Origin: a virus
DNA: 60,192 nt
Direction: 5' to 3' (one strand)
Virus record (IMG/VR): IMGVR_UViG_3300044684_000112
Location: 1 to 60,192 of that record
The notes under the pieces are model-generated. The model saw only the letters and a program-made list of their open reading frames with translations, ran no database searches and was not told where the DNA came from. Positions 41,369-57,070 of this stretch are shown here, one piece after another. How positions within the stretch are numbered: position 1 is the stretch's first letter; each line of letters opens with the position of its first letter. A program made the translations under genes and the position numbers.

Positions 41369-42400
41369 ATGTCAAAGAAATATGCAATAGCTGTAGTCAT
41401 CGGTCGTATGCAGCCCATCCATAATGGGCATGTACATTTACTTCAGCGAGCTTCTGAACTTGCTGATTTTGTTTTGGTATTGTTTGGTGACACTGGTGGT
41501 CCGCGTACAATCAAGAATCCATTCACCACGGTACAACGTGGGAACATGCTTGATGGTGTGATGAAATACATCGGATGTAATGCATACAGCTTTGCGGAAA
41601 TATTGGATGATCCAAATGATCAAGTTTGGATCCAGAATGTCAACCTTGCCATTTCTGGTGGTATCGGCAAGATTTGCATCGTCGGTCACACCAAGGAAGA
41701 CACCTCTTACCTCGAATGGTTCCCACAGTACGATTTCATCAACGTTCCATACAAGAACGTTGATGGTTTCGAGTACAACATCAACGCAACTTACATCCGA
41801 GATTTGTATTTTCAGAATCAATTGGAGTATGTGAGCGGAGCAATGCCGGAATCTACTGTCAAAGAACTTCGGAAGATTGCTGCTACACCTCAATTCCAAA
41901 CTTTGAAGGATGAATATGCATACATACGAGCCTATCGTAAGGCGTGGGAAGTCGCACCGTATCCAGTCGTCTTCTCGACGGCAGACGCGGTCGTTATACA
42001 ATCTGGACATGTCCTCCTTGTACGTCGCGGAAAAGAGCCAGGCAAAGGTCTACTTGCGTTACCCGGTGGGTTTCTGGACCCTAACGAAACGTTGTTCCAC
42101 GCATCCTTACGTGAGCTCCGGGAAGAGACTGGCATCAAAATTCAGGACGAAGTCCTCACGCGCTGCTTCAAAGCGAAAGAAATCTTCGACGCTCCGTCCA
42201 GGAGTTTGCGAGGTCGTACTATCACGACCGCATTCCTATTCAAGCTCAACGATTCGTGTGAACTCCCGGCATTGCGTCCGGGGAAAGATCCGGATGGTGG
42301 TACTATTGACGCGCGATGGGTGCCGCTTGGTGAAGTCAAAAGGAGTGTGATGTTCGAGGATCACTACTTCATCATTCAGAAGATGGTATCAATGTTATGA
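41369..42400 (+). CDS. nadM: Bifunctional NMN adenylyltransferase / Nudix hydrolase
   Basis: 343 aa; GGAGGAG before ATG. Residues 1-180 are a NadM-type nucleotidyltransferase: VVIGRMQPIHNGHVHLL with HNGH near 19, KNPFTTVQRGNML, and INATYIRDLYF (the ISATxIR-like motif). Residues about 200-343 carry the Nudix box GGFLDPNETLFHASLRELRE followed by ETG. It makes NAD+ from NMN and may hydrolyse ADP-ribose. With NAMPT (47105) it completes a two-step NAD+ salvage route (NARP2-type). Confidence 0.93.
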   Translation: MSKKYAIAVVIGRMQPIHNGHVHLLQRASELADFVLVLFGDTGGPRTIKNPFTTVQRGNMLDGVMKYIGCNAYSFAEILDDPNDQVWIQNVNLAISGGIGKICIVGHTKEDTSYLEWFPQYDFINVPYKNVDGFEYNINATYIRDLYFQNQLEYVSGAMPESTVKELRKIAATPQFQTLKDEYAYIRAYRKAWEVAPYPVVFSTADAVVIQSGHVLLVRRGKEPGKGLLALPGGFLDPNETLFHASLRELREETGIKIQDEVLTRCFKAKEIFDAPSRSLRGRTITTAFLFKLNDSCELPALRPGKDPDGGTIDARWVPLGEVKRSVMFEDHYFIIQKMVSML

Positions 42401-47104: not shown

Positions 47105-48529
47105 ATGTCGATTCTCACCAACCGTCTTTTGCAGACGGATAGCTACAAGCTTTCCCATTTTGCGCAATACCCAACCAAAACCAGTTACATCTCTTCGTAC
47201 ATCGAAGCACGCGGAAGCAGCATCGAAGGTGTCAACGAGACGGTGTTTTTCGGTCTTCAGCCTTTCATTAAGGACTTCCTGCTGACTCCAATCACACTGG
47301 AAGAAATCCTGGAAGCCGAAGCGTTCGCCCAAATTCACGGCGAACCATTCAACTATGCTGGTTGGCGCTACATCCTCGACACCCATGGCGGCAACCTGCC
47401 TCTGCGCATCGAAGCCGTTGCAGAAGGTTCTGTTGTTCCTGTCGGCACACCGTTGGTGCAAATTCAAAACACTGACGACAAGTGCGCTTGGCTTACTTCC
47501 TACTTCGAGCCAACCATTCTCTCCCCAGTCTGGTACGGAACGAGCGTTGCGACGATTTCGTATGCCTGTAAGAAGGCAATTCGTTACGCAATGTTGAAGT
47601 CAAGTGATTCACTCGATGGATTGGAGTTCAAGCTTCATGACTTCGGCTTCCGTGGTGTGATTCCTGGTGGCGGTCGAGTCGGCGGTGCAGCACATCTGAT
47701 CAATTTCCGAGGCACTGACACCATCCAAGGCATTGGTGCTGCGATGCACTACTACAATGCTGACGTCAAGAGCTCTGGTTTCTCAATTCCTGCTGCCGAA
47801 CATAGCACGATGACGATCCGTGGCAAAGAAGGCGAGAAGCTCTGTTTCCAACAGATGGTCGATGCCTACGCCAAACCTGGTGCAATTTTCGCTGTGGTAT
47901 CAGATGGATACGACATCTATAATGCTGTGCTGAACGAATGGATTCATGGCGGTCTGTTGCAGCAGGTGAAGGCTGCTGGAGCTAAGGTCGTGATCCGTCC
48001 AGATTCTGGCAATCCATTGGTTGTTCCGGTCGACATCGTCGAGCTCATTTGGGACAACACTCCTGAGAAACTGGTCAACGGCAAGGGATACAAGGTCCTT
48101 CCACCATACGTTGGTGTGATCCAGGGCGACGGTATCACGGTGAACACAATTCCGTTGATCCTGAACAATCTCCTGGGTCGCGGCTTCTCTGCTGATTGTC
48201 TGAACTTCGGTATGGGCGGCGGCTTGCTTCAGCACGTGAATCGAGACACATTCAAGTTCGCCATGAAGGCAAGTTGGGGCATCGTTGATGGCAAGGAAGT
48301 TGACATCTACAAGGACCCTGTGACTGATAAGGGCAAAAGGAGCAAGCGTGGGAGGTTTGCTGTTGTCAAGGAAGGCGATGATTGGAAGACAATGCGCAAA
48401 CATGAATATTTTGCCATGGGGTTCAGCGCTCCAATCAATCAGTTGCAAGTCGTCTACGATTACAGCAAGTGCAATCGTGAACTGCGCTTGACGACGTTCG
48501 ATGATGTGCGCAAGAGGGCTGCGTTGTGA
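47105..48529 (+). CDS. nadV: Nicotinamide phosphoribosyltransferase (NAMPT/NadV)
   Basis: 474 aa, the usual NAMPT length; AAGGAG before ATG. LLQTDSYKLSHFAQYP, YISSYIEARG, VFFGLQPFIKDFL, FKLHDFGFRGV, VIRPDSGNP, GVIQGDGI and FGMGGGLLQ are family signatures covering the PRPP and nicotinamide sites; the FDRxxYA-type C-terminal region is replaced by VYDYSKCNREL. It converts nicotinamide and PRPP to NMN, which NadM (41369) turns into NAD+. Overlaps the next gene by four bases (GTGA). Confidence 0.95.
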   Translation: MSILTNRLLQTDSYKLSHFAQYPTKTSYISSYIEARGSSIEGVNETVFFGLQPFIKDFLLTPITLEEILEAEAFAQIHGEPFNYAGWRYILDTHGGNLPLRIEAVAEGSVVPVGTPLVQIQNTDDKCAWLTSYFEPTILSPVWYGTSVATISYACKKAIRYAMLKSSDSLDGLEFKLHDFGFRGVIPGGGRVGGAAHLINFRGTDTIQGIGAAMHYYNADVKSSGFSIPAAEHSTMTIRGKEGEKLCFQQMVDAYAKPGAIFAVVSDGYDIYNAVLNEWIHGGLLQQVKAAGAKVVIRPDSGNPLVVPVDIVELIWDNTPEKLVNGKGYKVLPPYVGVIQGDGITVNTIPLILNNLLGRGFSADCLNFGMGGGLLQHVNRDTFKFAMKASWGIVDGKEVDIYKDPVTDKGKRSKRGRFAVVKEGDDWKTMRKHEYFAMGFSAPINQLQVVYDYSKCNRELRLTTFDDVRKRAAL

Positions 48530-53012: not shown

Positions 53013-53438
53013 ATGCCAATGAAATTTGATACCTCTGCAATCTCTCGGTCTCTAAACATGACGTCTTTAGGCGTGATTGATATTGAGTTCGATGGAACGC
53101 ATGACCATCGCCATGGTGGTTGGGAATTAGTCAACAACAATCCTAAAGTGAAAGCTGCTGCAACAAAACGTGGTGGAAAGAAACGAAGGAATGGCTTGAT
53201 TGCTCTTAATCGTTCTGAAAGAAAACGGATGGAGCGATCGATTAGAAATGTTGATCATAATCGCAACAACAAATTCGCTCTTGGATATAAGCATTCTGCT
53301 GAAGGCAAGAAGCGAATTTCCAATAACAATGGTGCACGTGGGTGCAAGTGGATGAACGATGGTTCAGTCACGGAACGTGTATCTGCAATGCAAATTTATG
53401 ACCGTCTAAACAATGGTTGGCAATTTGGTAGGTTATAA
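53013..53438 (+). CDS. Homing-endonuclease remnant (NUMOD3-type DNA-binding C-terminus)
   Basis: 141 aa. The C-terminal half has KHSAEGKKRISNNNGARG (NUMOD3-like) and CKWMNDGSVTERV ... LNNGWQFGRL, the 'W-x-N-x-G ... GW-x-x-GR' ending typical of phage GIY-YIG and HNH homing proteins. No GIY-YIG or HNH catalytic motif is present in the N-terminal part, so it is probably a degenerate or DNA-binding-only remnant. The stop overlaps the first bases of the tmRNA acceptor piece. Confidence 0.6.
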   Translation: MPMKFDTSAISRSLNMTSLGVIDIEFDGTHDHRHGGWELVNNNPKVKAAATKRGGKKRRNGLIALNRSERKRMERSIRNVDHNRNNKFALGYKHSAEGKKRISNNNGARGCKWMNDGSVTERVSAMQIYDRLNNGWQFGRL

Positions 53439-53498
53439 CTGTATGAAGCGACCCGAAAGGGTTTGCGGACGGGAGTTCGATTCTCCCCTGGTCCACCA
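53437..53498 (+). ncRNA. ssrA: tmRNA acceptor piece
   Basis: Contains the P2 3' strand (AACTGT, GAAGC), TTTGCGGAC as in standard tmRNAs before the T-arm, the T-arm GGGAG-TTCGATT-CTCCC (53471-53487), the acceptor strand CTGGTCC and encoded ACCA ending at 53498. The true 5' end may lie a few bases upstream, inside the homing ORF. Confidence 0.88.
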
Positions 53499-53654
53499 AA
53501 ACTCAACTCGGCAAAGAGCCACATACACGAAGAAATACTCCTTTGTCAGATTTGGCGTGCACGCCGGAGAACCCTAAGTTCCAAAGCCCAAAAGAGTAGG
53601 CTGGCCAGCCGAAATGAGTAAGGTTGACGAATGGTGGAAGAGTTGAGTTTTGAT
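53499..53654 (+). other. tmRNA intervening transcribed segment
   Basis: About 156 bases between the CCA end and the mature 5' end. Its ends form a 12-bp perfect helix stacked on the acceptor stem. It should be removed from the precursor by RNase P at 53655 and by 3' trimming at 53498. Confidence 0.8.
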
Positions 53655-53880
53655 GGGCCAGACCAGGTTTCGACGTGGACTTGAATAGGCTTCGCAGACA
53701 GTTCGAGAGATGACCGACGTAATCGGCATAAAACAAAGTAAACGCAAACGATGACACGTTTGAGGTCCGTCTAGCTGCCTAATCCGCAGCGTTGACAACA
53801 ACGACCTACCAGACTTGCCGCCCTTCTGGTTTCCTCATTGGGCGGTTCCAATTCCCTTTGGGTTGCTGCATTGATATGCT
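53655..53880 (+). ncRNA. ssrA: tmRNA coding piece with tag frame ANDDTFEVRLAA
   Basis: 5' GGGCCAG, then GGTTTCGACGTGG as in betaproteobacterial tmRNAs, P2 5' strand, a PK1 region (CCGA/TCGG), the resume codon GCA at 53744, stop TAA at 53780-53782 inside hairpin GCTGC-CTAATCC-GCAGC, and a pseudoknot: ACCAGA/TCTGGT (53808/53825) interleaved with CCGCCC/GGGCGG (53818/53840). Confidence 0.9.
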
Positions 53881-53928
53881 AGTGGCTCAATCCTTGATAC
53901 ATCCTTCTACCAACAAAGGATCTTTGCA

Positions 53929-54420
53929 ATGTCTGCATATTCGATCAGCTCTACCCTGAGTGAAATTCAAGCTCTCTTCTTCCGCGCTGCTGTGATTGGT
54001 GCGCTCTTGGAAGCCAAGGCTCCTTCGGAAGCCGCACGTTACATCGGCGAAAATCTCGATGTTCAAATGGAAGCTGACCCGAATTCGTTCGATCCGTTGC
54101 ATCTGCTGCTCGCAGCAGATTTTGTTGCTGCTGATGCGGTGCAGTTCTCCGGCGAACTCATGCTGGCATGCATGCTTGGTGTTGAACATGACGGCGTTGA
54201 CTTCAAGCGGTTTGCCAACGAAGAAGGTCGTCCGAACGATTTGGCTCTCGCGACGTACGTAACGGAAACGTACAACGCCAACGGCGGATTCAAAATCAAC
54301 GATGATCTGATCAGCAGCGTGAACACACTGATCAATTCCGATCAGCAGGAATCCAAAGAATACGTCCAGAAGATTCGCGACAAGAACGCTGGCGTGTTCC
54401 AAGCTTGGTCGATCGACTGA
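53929..54420 (+). CDS. Hypothetical acidic helical protein
   Basis: 163 aa. SSTLSEIQALFFRAAVIGAL, LHLLLAADFVAADAVQFSG, LMLACMLGVEHDGVDFKRF: helical and acidic, no known motif. Protein gene between tmRNA and tRNA cluster. Confidence 0.55.
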   Translation: MSAYSISSTLSEIQALFFRAAVIGALLEAKAPSEAARYIGENLDVQMEADPNSFDPLHLLLAADFVAADAVQFSGELMLACMLGVEHDGVDFKRFANEEGRPNDLALATYVTETYNANGGFKINDDLISSVNTLINSDQQESKEYVQKIRDKNAGVFQAWSID

Positions 54421-54536: not shown

Positions 54537-54613
54537 GCCTCTGTAACAGAATTGGTATATGTGCCGGCTTCAAACTCCGGATTTTGTGGGTTCGAGTCCC
54601 ACCAGAGGTACCA
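54537..54613 (+). tRNA. tRNA-Leu (anticodon CAA), short variable region
   Basis: Acceptor GCCTCTG/CAGAGGT, anticodon loop TTCAAAC with CAA (one mismatch at the loop-closing pair), T-arm GTGGG-TTCGAGT-CCCAC, encoded ACCA. The variable region has only 5-6 bases although leucine tRNAs are normally class II. Confidence 0.8.
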
Positions 54614-54621
54614 AGTTTAAT

Positions 54622-54718
54622 GGGGAAGAAAGCTGGTATGGCTTTCCAGCTCAATCCTGCTAATAAATGGGATTGGTACAGCAAAACAAATTTGTTGGTT
54701 CGACTCCAATCTTCCCCA
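54622..54718 (+). tRNA. tRNA-like RNA with enlarged anticodon loop
   Basis: GGGGAAG/CTTCCCC acceptor, D-arm-like AGCTGG/CCAGCT with GG in the loop, T-arm GTTGG-TTCGACT-CCAAT. The anticodon arm CAATCC/GGATTG encloses 12 bases (TGCTAATAAATG) rather than 7, and the variable region is long. CCA is not directly encoded. A central GCT could be a Ser anticodon, but the loop size argues against a normal tRNA. Confidence 0.5.
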
Positions 54719-54727
54719 CTCCAATTT

Positions 54728-54819
54728 GGAAGGTGACCTGGTCAGGTGACCAGCGATGTTTGCTAAACATTTGGATCGGTGATGAGCCGGTTTGGGTTCG
54801 AGACCTACTCCTTCCGCCA
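54728..54819 (+). tRNA. tRNA-Ser (anticodon GCT)
   Basis: Class II, 92 bases. Acceptor GGAAGGT/TCCTTCC, anticodon arm GATGT-TTGCTAA-ACATT (GCT, reads AGC/AGU), variable arm TCGG/CCGG, encoded GCCA. Confidence 0.85.
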
Positions 54820-54823
54820 ATTC

Positions 54824-54895
54824 GGTGCTATAGTCTGGGACAAAGGTCGCCTCATAAGCGATTCAGGATAGGTTCGATTCCTTCTAGCACCACCA
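54824..54895 (+). tRNA. tRNA-Met (anticodon CAT)
   Basis: 72 bases. Acceptor GGTGCTA/TAGCACC, anticodon arm GTCGC-CTCATAA-GCGAT, T-loop TTCGATT, encoded ACCA. The T-stem has mismatches. CAT could also be a modified Ile tRNA; lack of an initiator C1-A72 mismatch rules out tRNA-fMet. Confidence 0.8.
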
Positions 54896-54934
54896 GAGCA
54901 TCAATACGATGTGATTTACCACGTGGAGTTTGTT

Positions 54935-55162
54935 ATGTCTCTCGTTGTCGTTGCTGGTGCAGTTGCTGTAGTGGTTGCGGGTGTTGCTTATCTGATTAAG
55001 AAGCGCAAGGCTGTTGCTTCTTTGCCGCAGGTGAACACTCCGGCTCCGCTTTCTACTGCCGAAAAGGTCGCGGAAACTGTTGTCGCGGCTGCAGCAACCG
55101 AAGTTAAAGATGTCGCGACGCAAGTCGTGGACGTTGCAAACACGGTTGCTTCGAAGGTTTGA
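54935..55162 (+). CDS. Small membrane protein with Ala/Val-rich tail
   Basis: 75 aa; ATG 54935 with GTGGAG upstream. Membrane helix LVVVAGAVAVVVAGVAYLI, basic stop (KKRK), then an amphipathic Ala/Val repeat (VAETVVAAAATEVKDVATQV). Unknown function. Confidence 0.6.
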   Translation: MSLVVVAGAVAVVVAGVAYLIKKRKAVASLPQVNTPAPLSTAEKVAETVVAAAATEVKDVATQVVDVANTVASKV

Positions 55163-55218
55163 CTCTTTCTGGGTGTGAGTGACACCCAGAACAAATTTTC
55201 TTTCAACATGGATTTATC

Positions 55219-55473
55219 ATGACTGAGCTTGAAAGCGTCGAGAAATTGAAAGCTAAGATCGAGAGCATGGGCATCAAAAAGCTTCATGTTTTCCCTGGTG
55301 GAAAGTGGAAAGACCTTTCGATCAGCGAACGTGCTGATGAAGTGTTGAAAATGCTCGAGAGAGTTGAGCGCGGTGAACTTGTCACTTGCGATTTTGCTGC
55401 TCTTGATGCAATGAATGAACAAGTTGAGCAACCGGGAGAATTTCCGGATCCGCCGCCGAAGCGTGCTGCTTGA
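55219..55473 (+). CDS. Hypothetical protein
   Basis: 84 aa; TTTATCATG start context. Helical, with IKKLHVFPGGKWKDLSISER and a Pro-rich end (FPDPPPKRAA). Not recognised. Confidence 0.5.
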   Translation: MTELESVEKLKAKIESMGIKKLHVFPGGKWKDLSISERADEVLKMLERVERGELVTCDFAALDAMNEQVEQPGEFPDPPPKRAA

Positions 55474-55483
55474 CAAAAGCTTT

Positions 55484-55574
55484 GGATGCCTGCAGCAAAC
55501 AATTATCGCGATTGGTTCGCAATTTGCCTTCTAAGCAAACCTAGCAGGTTCGAATCCTGTATATCGTGCATCCA
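55484..55574 (+). tRNA. tRNA-Arg (TCT)-like, aberrant acceptor region
   Basis: Core arms are good: D-arm GCGA-TTGGT-TCGC, anticodon arm TTTGC-CTTCTAA-GCAAA (TCT, reads AGA), T-arm GCAGG-TTCGAAT-CCTGT. The expected 7-bp acceptor (ACAATTA/ATATCGT) has only four pairs, whereas GGATGC/GCATCC pairs further out. It could be a decayed tRNA or one with an insertion. Confidence 0.5.
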
Positions 55575-55585
55575 GTGATTTCTAT

Positions 55586-55662
55586 GCCCTTGTAGCGGAA
55601 TTGGCAAACGCACCGGATTTAGGTTCCGGGGTTTGTGGGTTCGAGTCCCACCAGGGGTACCA
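55586..55662 (+). tRNA. tRNA-Leu (anticodon TAG), short variable region
   Basis: Acceptor GCCCTTG/CAGGGGT, anticodon arm CCGGA-TTTAGGT-TCCGG (TAG, reads CUA), T-arm GTGGG-TTCGAGT-CCCAC, encoded ACCA. The T-arm is identical to that of tRNA-Leu(CAA), suggesting duplication. Confidence 0.85.
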
Positions 55663-55679
55663 AATTGAGGTTCTACATC

Positions 55680-55838
55680 ATGTATGGCATTGAGTGTTGT
55701 ATCTGTGAGAAACAAGGTTCGTATGCTGACATTTGTCGCAGCGGCTGGCAACTTGCACGCAATACTCCATTCTATTATGTTTGTGGTTCCGAATGTGCCA
55801 AACGCCTGAAGGAAATTCAGGAATCAAAGAAGAAATAA
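55680..55838 (+). CDS. Small Cys-rich (zinc-finger-like) protein
   Basis: 52 aa; ATG 55680 with TGAGG upstream in the TACATCATG context. IECCICEKQG, DICRSGW and YYVCGSECAKRL provide Cys pairs as in short treble-clef zinc proteins. Lies between tRNA genes. Function unknown. Confidence 0.55.
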   Translation: MYGIECCICEKQGSYADICRSGWQLARNTPFYYVCGSECAKRLKEIQESKKK

Positions 55839-55839
55839 T

Positions 55840-55934
55840 GCTTCCATAGTTTAATTGGTAAAACACCTGACTTATATTCAGCATTGGCGCCCGATTAGCG
55901 CATGTTCTAGGTTCGAGTCCTAGTGGAAGCACCA
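55840..55934 (+). tRNA. tRNA with anticodon TAT (Ile) and unusual long variable arm
   Basis: 95 bases. Acceptor GCTTCCA/TGGAAGC, anticodon loop CTTATAT in CTGA/TCAG (TAT, reads AUA), T-arm CTAGG-TTCGAGT-CCTAG, encoded ACCA. The 24-base variable region forms GCGC-CCGATTA-GCGC. Isoleucine tRNAs are normally class I, so identity is uncertain. Confidence 0.7.
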
Positions 55935-55938
55935 ATAT

Positions 55939-56014
55939 GGGGCAGTAGAGAACGGTAGATCATAACGTCTTAAAAACGTGAAACTTGTCGGTTCGAGTCC
56001 GACCTGCCCTACCA
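55939..56014 (+). tRNA. tRNA-Leu (anticodon TAA), short variable region
   Basis: 76 bases. Acceptor GGGGCAG/CTGCCCT, anticodon loop CTTAAAA (TAA, reads UUA), T-arm GTCGG-TTCGAGT-CCGAC, encoded ACCA. Four bases after the previous tRNA. Confidence 0.8.
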
Positions 56015-56054
56015 AACAAAATTCGGCTACATAGCTGGTCAATTGGAGTGTATC

Positions 56055-56564
56055 ATGACCACTGTAACCGAAGAACATCTCGAGAATCGAGTATTGCATG
56101 ACTTTGTGATCGATCCAGATCATGATCAGCGTACTGAAAGTCCCGAGTTTAGAAAATCGAAAGAAAGACTCAAGGAAGATGGACACTTCCAATGTTGGAT
56201 CTGCGGCGCTAAGGATGAATTGCAAGTACATCACCGCGCCGGTGAATACATGTTCAACAATATCATTGACTTTGATTTACTCAAAGAGTTCTGCGAAGAA
56301 TGGGACATCTATGGGTATGGCAAATTGCTCAAGGCAAAGCCGATTGAATCAGTTGATGATATCAGGAACATGATGGTTCTTTGTCAACCACACCATACTG
56401 GTGTCAACCATACAGATGGCGGTGGTGGAACTGGGATCCATGCATTGACGTTCTCTTCTTGGGTCATGCAAAAGCTTGCGTTGAAGGGTGCGGATCCAGT
56501 TCCTCAACAAGGTGAAACGTTTGAGCAAGCAAAGGCTCGCATCAAACAGTTTGAACGCAAATGA
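56055..56564 (+). CDS. HNH-like endonuclease
   Basis: 169 aa; ATG 56055 with GGAG upstream. FQCWICGAKDELQVHHRAGE gives a CxxC and the HH of an HNH motif, and MMVLCQPHHTGVNH supplies the second Cys-x-x-HH. Probably a free-standing homing-type or DNA-cutting enzyme within the tRNA island. Confidence 0.7.
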   Translation: MTTVTEEHLENRVLHDFVIDPDHDQRTESPEFRKSKERLKEDGHFQCWICGAKDELQVHHRAGEYMFNNIIDFDLLKEFCEEWDIYGYGKLLKAKPIESVDDIRNMMVLCQPHHTGVNHTDGGGGTGIHALTFSSWVMQKLALKGADPVPQQGETFEQAKARIKQFERK

Positions 56565-56576
56565 GTGTTGGTCGTT

Positions 56577-56654
56577 CCTGGACGTAAACCAGGTGGTGGA
56601 GGGTGATTGTTAAGTCAGTCACCCCTCGTCGTGCCGGAGGACGGGAAACTCCGG
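56577..56654 (+). ncRNA. Unknown three-hairpin RNA between HNH gene and tRNA-Ser
   Basis: CCTGG/CCAGG (7-base loop ACGTAAA), GAGGGTGA/TCACCCCTC, and CCGGAG/CTCCGG follow one another in 78 bases. The first arm resembles an anticodon arm but lacks T33. No CCA or T-loop. Could be a decayed tRNA or a structured spacer. Confidence 0.4.
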
Positions 56655-56664
56655 ATCTAATTTT

Positions 56665-56755
56665 GGAGAGTGATGCTGCCTGGGATGCAGCGCCTGCCTT
56701 GAAAGCAGGACGAGCCAGAAATGGCCAGGAGTTCGATTCTGCCCTCTCTCCGCCA
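56665..56755 (+). tRNA. tRNA-Ser (anticodon TGA)
   Basis: Class II, 91 bases. Acceptor GGAGAGT/TCTCTCC, anticodon arm CCTGC-CTTGAAA-GCAGG (TGA), variable arm GCCA-GAAA-TGGC, T-loop TTCGATT with a weak T-stem, encoded GCCA. Confidence 0.85.
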
Positions 56756-56784
56756 ATTTCTATAGAATGACATTGTGAGGCTTG

Positions 56785-56988
56785 ATGTTACTCATCAATT
56801 TCAAAGAAGACAAGCAACGTGAAATCCTCGCCAAGCTTGGTGAGCTTCTGATCGAAATGGCAGAAGATGGCGAAGCAAGTGATGTAGAAGAAACTCTCCA
56901 TCACATCCAACATGGATATTTGGAAGAGCTTGGTCCACAAGATTTCTTCGGAACCGAAGGCTGGGAACACTGGCTCGGTATCGATTAA
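56785..56988 (+). CDS. Small acidic hypothetical protein
   Basis: 67 aa; ATG 56785 with GAGG upstream. REILAKLGELLIEMAEDGEA, then LGPQDFFGTEGWEHWLG. Not recognised. Confidence 0.5.
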   Translation: MLLINFKEDKQREILAKLGELLIEMAEDGEASDVEETLHHIQHGYLEELGPQDFFGTEGWEHWLGID

Positions 56989-56995
56989 TAGTTTT

Positions 56996-57070
56996 GCCCA
57001 CAAAGCATTGATGGCGATGCAGCGGTTTCGTACACCGCAGAAGTGAGTTCGATTCTCTCTGTGGGCTCCA
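56996..57070 (+). tRNA. tRNA-Thr (anticodon CGT)
   Basis: 75 bases. Acceptor GCCCACA/TGTGGGC, D-arm GCAT/ATGC, anticodon arm GCGG-T-TTCGTAC-A-CCGC (CGT, reads ACG), T-loop TTCGATT, encoded TCCA. Confidence 0.88.

Follow-up and report, generated by a model that had tools for sequence, protein, structure and literature searches.

The window, i.e. the whole 60-kb virus record analysed here (60,192 nucleotides, IMG/VR record IMGVR_UViG_3300044684_000112), carries on its plus strand (53437-53845) a complete tmRNA gene in circularly permuted, two-piece form; its parts are listed in Table 1 together with neighbouring features. The Rfam model RF04321 (tmRNA_permuted) is matched over its full length (1-213 of 213) at 53437-53782 (+) with 116.9 bits (cut-off 47, E=3.6e-22). 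This score and the relatives described below exclude a chance origin of the structure, and they bear out the permuted phage tmRNA proposed in a preliminary description of the sequence, with a covariance-model match far above the cut-off.

The acceptor strand GGGCCAG (from 53655) pairs with CTGGTCC at all seven positions, G3-U70 included, and P2 is formed by AACUGU (53437-53442) and ACAGUU (53699-53704), which lie in opposite pieces. These helices, the CCA end and the start of the 5' half with 156 nt between them, the perfect closing helix of exactly 12 bp, the EVR ahead of LAA in the tag and the H-type pseudoknot 3' of it agree with the preliminary description. The tag comprises 12 residues of the AND...LAA type and ends in EVRLAA, a degradation-type C-terminus. 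The hairpin said to enclose it is reduced to a 6-bp stem (CAAACG/CGTTTG) in the MFE fold, with nothing larger over the tag, and the proposed gene end at 53880 exceeds the supported one: the structure is supported to about 53845. ARAGORN (bundled run) likewise calls a permuted tmRNA, at 53406-54050, with a wrong tag (AQSLIHPSTNKG...) that is rejected here, as it is not conserved; the covariance model and the relatives back ANDDTFEVRLAA.

Table 1. Features of the tmRNA locus in the window, and an RNase P RNA match in phage DLP6.
Feature	Position	Strand	Basis
141-aa ORF, basic; stop codon overlaps P2 start	53013-53438	+	PHROG and Pfam compared
Acceptor piece (3' tRNA-like half): P2 5' strand, T-arm, acceptor 3' strand, encoded CCA	53437-53498	+	RF04321 alignment; pairing compared with 11 other phages
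T-arm	53471-53487	+	T-stem GGGAG/CTCCC at 53471-53475/53483-53487
Acceptor 3' strand CTGGTCC	53488-53494	+	Sequence read directly
Discriminator A	53495	+	Sequence read directly
Encoded CCA	53496-53498	+	Upstream of the 5' half (permuted order, as in RF04321)
12-bp closing helix, 5' arm AAAACTCAACTC	53498-53509	+	Shuffle test
Intervening sequence, presumably excised during maturation	53499-53654	+	156 nt between CCA and 5' half; insert in Rfam alignment
12-bp closing helix, 3' arm GAGTTGAGTTTT	53640-53651	+	Pairs with 53498-53509
5' tRNA-like half: acceptor 5' strand, D-loop GGTTTCGAC, P2 3' strand	53655-53704	+	RF04321
Tag frame ANDDTFEVRLAA and TAA, resume codon GCA	53744-53782	+	Same tag in G001
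H-type pseudoknot 3' of tag	53809-53845	+	Stems 53809-53813/53825-53829 (CCAGA/TCTGG) and 53818-53823/53840-53845 (CCGCCC/GGGCGG)
Eight tRNA genes, cluster downstream of tmRNA	54537-57070	+	ARAGORN, Rfam
RF00010 match in DLP6	L002:5849-6097 = KU682439.2 105774-106022		Rfam

The betaproteobacterial two-piece tmRNAs (RF01850) and RF04321 share with the window gene the order of acceptor piece, spacer and tag piece, the D-loop GGTTTCGAC, G3-U70, a P2 split over the two pieces, an AND...LAA tag and a pseudoknot after it. The window gene differs from RF01850 (beta_tmRNA) in its 12-residue tag with EVR before LAA and in a longer spacer, and reaches 81.0 bits, just below the cut-off of 84, which its relatives G001, G002, DLP6 and Marzo exceed. 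The alphaproteobacterial model RF01849 (alpha_tmRNA), which shares the permuted architecture, gives 54.8 bits, above its cut-off of 50 yet lower than the beta model. The gene is labelled beta-like, i.e. closest to the betaproteobacterial type and not a formal member of RF01850.

Judged by its primase, ribonucleotide reductase, NAMPT (nicotinamide phosphoribosyltransferase) and tail-fibre genes, the window phage belongs to the T4 superfamily as a distant relative of T4, with Stenotrophomonas phage DLP6 (KU682439) as the nearest named phage (56% identity in the primase, 59% in the ribonucleotide reductase). DLP6 has the same order of NAMPT, tmRNA and tRNA cluster, its tmRNA being unannotated. 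The 141-aa ORF upstream of the window tmRNA is without family match in PHROG or Pfam. The tmRNAs of DLP6 and of the Menderavirus phages (Marzo, IME-SM1) are, as in the window, permuted, beta-like and situated beside tRNAs in T4-related genomes, but their tags are ANDDSFAPMAIAA and (VA)ANDDSYTVRIAA, respectively, and their spacers are shorter (31 and 57 nt). Methylophage Melnitz and pelagiphage Mosig are myophages that likewise carry two-piece tmRNAs, of the alphaproteobacterial type unlike that of the window, and in Melnitz linked to a glutamine riboswitch (PMC9004378).

The nearest relative, G001 (L022), has an identical tag with one synonymous change (CTA/CTC). Identity of the window to G001 amounts to 38/39 nucleotides in the tag and 38/39 in the stretch just before it, against 51/70 in the acceptor piece and 32/50 in the 5' half: the tag is held constant and the helices drift with compensation. 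The differences compensate in the acceptor (GGGCCAG/CTGGTCC vs GGGGTGG/CCACTCC), the T-stem (GGGAG/CTCCC vs GCGGG/CCCGC) and P2 (AACTGT/ACAGTT vs GGCTGT/ACAGCC), and both pseudoknot stems differ as well (CCAGA/TCTGG vs CTAGA/TCTAG; CCGCCC/GGGCGG vs CTGCCC/GGGCAG). The pseudoknot topology is common to the window, G001, G002, DLP6 and X1, with stems that have changed and stayed complementary. G3-U70 (GGG/UCC) is present in 12 of 12 phages compared (the window and 11 others). As the locus search script demanded an acceptor with at most one mismatch and a complete P2, the pairing percentages of these helices are circular; independent of that filter are the Rfam scores, the pseudoknot and the range of pair types that occur. 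The gene is genuine and conserved, and is probably functional.

A decaying or passenger copy of a host gene, or the leftover of an integration at host ssrA, would be hard to reconcile with the compensating changes relative to G001, DLP6 and X1 or with the DLP6 gene in the same neighbourhood, and is very improbable, even if tmRNA genes are common integration sites and most NAMPT-related phages are without a tmRNA gene. Integration leaves one end, whereas the window contains both tRNA halves complete, and an integration scar is rejected on that ground. Among 18 phage records fetched via NAMPT or tmRNA similarity, many of them fragments, four carry a tmRNA of the window type, which points to a dispensable gene.

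Very probably, the window gene encodes a working two-piece tmRNA, broadly of the betaproteobacterial type, that rescues ribosomes via host factors. We infer its transcription, processing, charging, function and benefit as follows. A sigma-70-like promoter was not found near the tmRNA, so that transcription would start from an upstream or a phage promoter, and would yield a single precursor, probably within a longer transcript shared with the neighbouring tRNAs. In this precursor the two tRNA halves would be brought together by the acceptor stem plus the helix that lies beyond it. Cleavage by host RNase P at 53654/53655, together with 3' maturation that exposes the CCA terminus at 53498, would leave two molecules, the acceptor RNA and the RNA with the tag frame, which stay joined through the acceptor and P2 helices. 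Charging, through G3-U70, would fall to the alanyl-tRNA synthetase of the host, and host SmpB and EF-Tu would deliver the charged RNA to ribosomes that have stalled on broken mRNA in infection. Translation would restart at GCA 53744, and after adding (A)ANDDTFEVRLAA the ribosome would terminate and thereby be freed, while the tagged protein would be marked for host proteases that recognise LAA at the C-terminus.

The gene smpB is absent from the window and eight other phage records, while the same search found it in 10 of 14 control genomes, and host SmpB would therefore be used. That none of these nine phage records brings SmpB would also suit an RNA that ties up SmpB or alanyl-tRNA synthetase and in this way blocks trans-translation of the host. 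Such a blocker has been proposed for the RNA of mycobacteriophage DS6A, which consists of the tRNA-like part only; in E. coli, expression of a form like that of DS6A inhibits the endogenous tmRNA (PMC11915505, PMC4131195). A mere competitor would need neither tag frame, stop codon nor pseudoknot, all of which are intact in the window, the tag being exactly kept in G001, and this role is accordingly given only a slight chance.

A terminal helix of at least 12 bp occurs in 0 of 200,000 shuffles of the 156-nt spacer. Terminal helices of at least 7 bp are found in 69 of the 84 distinct viral spacers that are long enough, vs approximately 3% of shuffles. The closing helix is thus general in viral permuted tmRNAs, and its candidacy as a peculiarity of the window phage is rejected. 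According to a passage in PMC9433436, bacterial RNase P is slowed when pairing extends the acceptor stem through RCCA. ACC/GAT is unpaired between acceptor stem and closing helix in the window, and this opening may help processing of the precursor.

A working tmRNA would be compatible with a different benefit, namely that the main gain is the altered tag, whose basic residue before the last three would change which host protease or adaptor deals with the tagged proteins. Tags ending in EVRLAA (window, G001), DVRLAA (Pseudomonas phage SM1), VRIAA (Marzo) and LRLAA (Xanthomonas phage Rb1), besides ERLAA, DRLAA and MRLAA among the IMG/VR contigs listed, are in line with such a gain, and in this comparison of viral tags alone the basic residue (VRLAA, VRIAA, LRLAA) recurs. 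However, among 93 distinct permuted viral tags called by ARAGORN the residue before the final [LIM]AA is R or K in 14 and A in 50, i.e. the ordinary ALAA type is frequent, and we regard tag reprogramming as unlikely to be the main benefit. An unusually long tag, AANDAVFDQSSNVLQFRKAA, which ends in RKAA, is present in the permuted tmRNA of G005 (L023), and the IMG/VR permuted calls L036, L043, L252, L042 and L168 have odd tags (e.g. ANKIVAFSRQTALV, ANTSDSAANNIVAFSRSTVAA), several of them without the AA end.

RF04321 is matched by all nine isolate-phage loci examined. They belong to Stenotrophomonas phages Marzo, QDWS359 and BUCTxx99, Xanthomonas phages X1, Rb1 and XacN1, Pseudomonas aeruginosa phage SM1, Acinetobacter phage BUCT628 and Achromobacter phage JWDelta, with JWDelta and BUCTxx99 included by Rfam match alone, since the locus structure script gave no match for either. 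A tmRNA is annotated in one of the nine regions (Marzo), and also in the related records Yut2, Yut3 and Bhz51. Permuted tmRNAs, mostly unannotated, in isolated phages of these five genera are the new element here. The own tmRNA of Pseudomonas, Xanthomonas, Stenotrophomonas and Acinetobacter is presumably one-piece. In IMG/VR, at least 176 permuted ARAGORN calls are found among the 266 loci listed from two pattern scans, the same gene sometimes lying in overlapping loci and some contigs possibly being host DNA.

In view of two reports of 2022, the suggestion in the preliminary description that permuted tmRNAs were undescribed in phages is not supported, and IMG/VR contains many further cases. 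Two-piece forms make up 53 of 133 unique phage tmRNA structures, 50 of them from marine or aquatic samples (PMC9004378), and a 'Betaproteobacter-class' permuted tmRNA is given for Stenotrophomonas phage Marzo (PMC8928761). A passage of PMC11915505 puts the phage entries of the tmRNA database at 79 unique sequences, one- and two-piece forms pooled. Because of the two 2022 reports a claim of novelty fails: permuted tmRNAs in phages are published and common, and the window gene is a further, well-conserved example of a little-noticed class of phages with their own split ribosome-rescue RNA. The Marzo announcement refers to a beta-class tmRNA of S. maltophilia (PMC8928761), which may itself be phage DNA.

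More interesting as a lead than the window gene alone is that permuted tmRNAs occur in phages whose hosts presumably have one-piece tmRNA. The beta-like permuted tmRNA could be a phage-adapted module, horizontally shared among unrelated phages of one-piece gammaproteobacteria, with basic-residue tags that steer proteins to a fate unlike that of the host tag; we consider this unlikely. Genes of this kind are also present in the culturable phages DLP6, Marzo and SM1, which makes both the benefit to the phage and the split RNA in a one-piece host directly testable. A search for a bacterial source by DNA pattern gave a sole genome match, in a cyanobacterial MAG (L026), which is rejected as a chance match: ARAGORN finds no tmRNA at that locus, and the sole RF04321 match of that genome lies elsewhere and below cut-off. 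There were also three matches on Cupriavidus plasmids.

The tRNA cluster of DLP6 contains an unannotated match to RF00010 (bacterial RNase P RNA; 54.7 bits with E 3e-17, against a cut-off of 100), which was not found in the window or in 17 related contigs. The window possesses NAMPT and two cytidyltransferase-type genes, one of them with a NUDIX-like part (47105-48529, 41369-42400 and 790-2670), which probably form a phage NAD salvage set. In Achromobacter phage JWDelta the tmRNA is directly preceded by an HNH endonuclease gene (L274:19-441), and one such gene lies upstream of the tmRNA in Marzo (L268:93-491), with two tRNAs between; homing endonucleases might spread the tmRNA gene.
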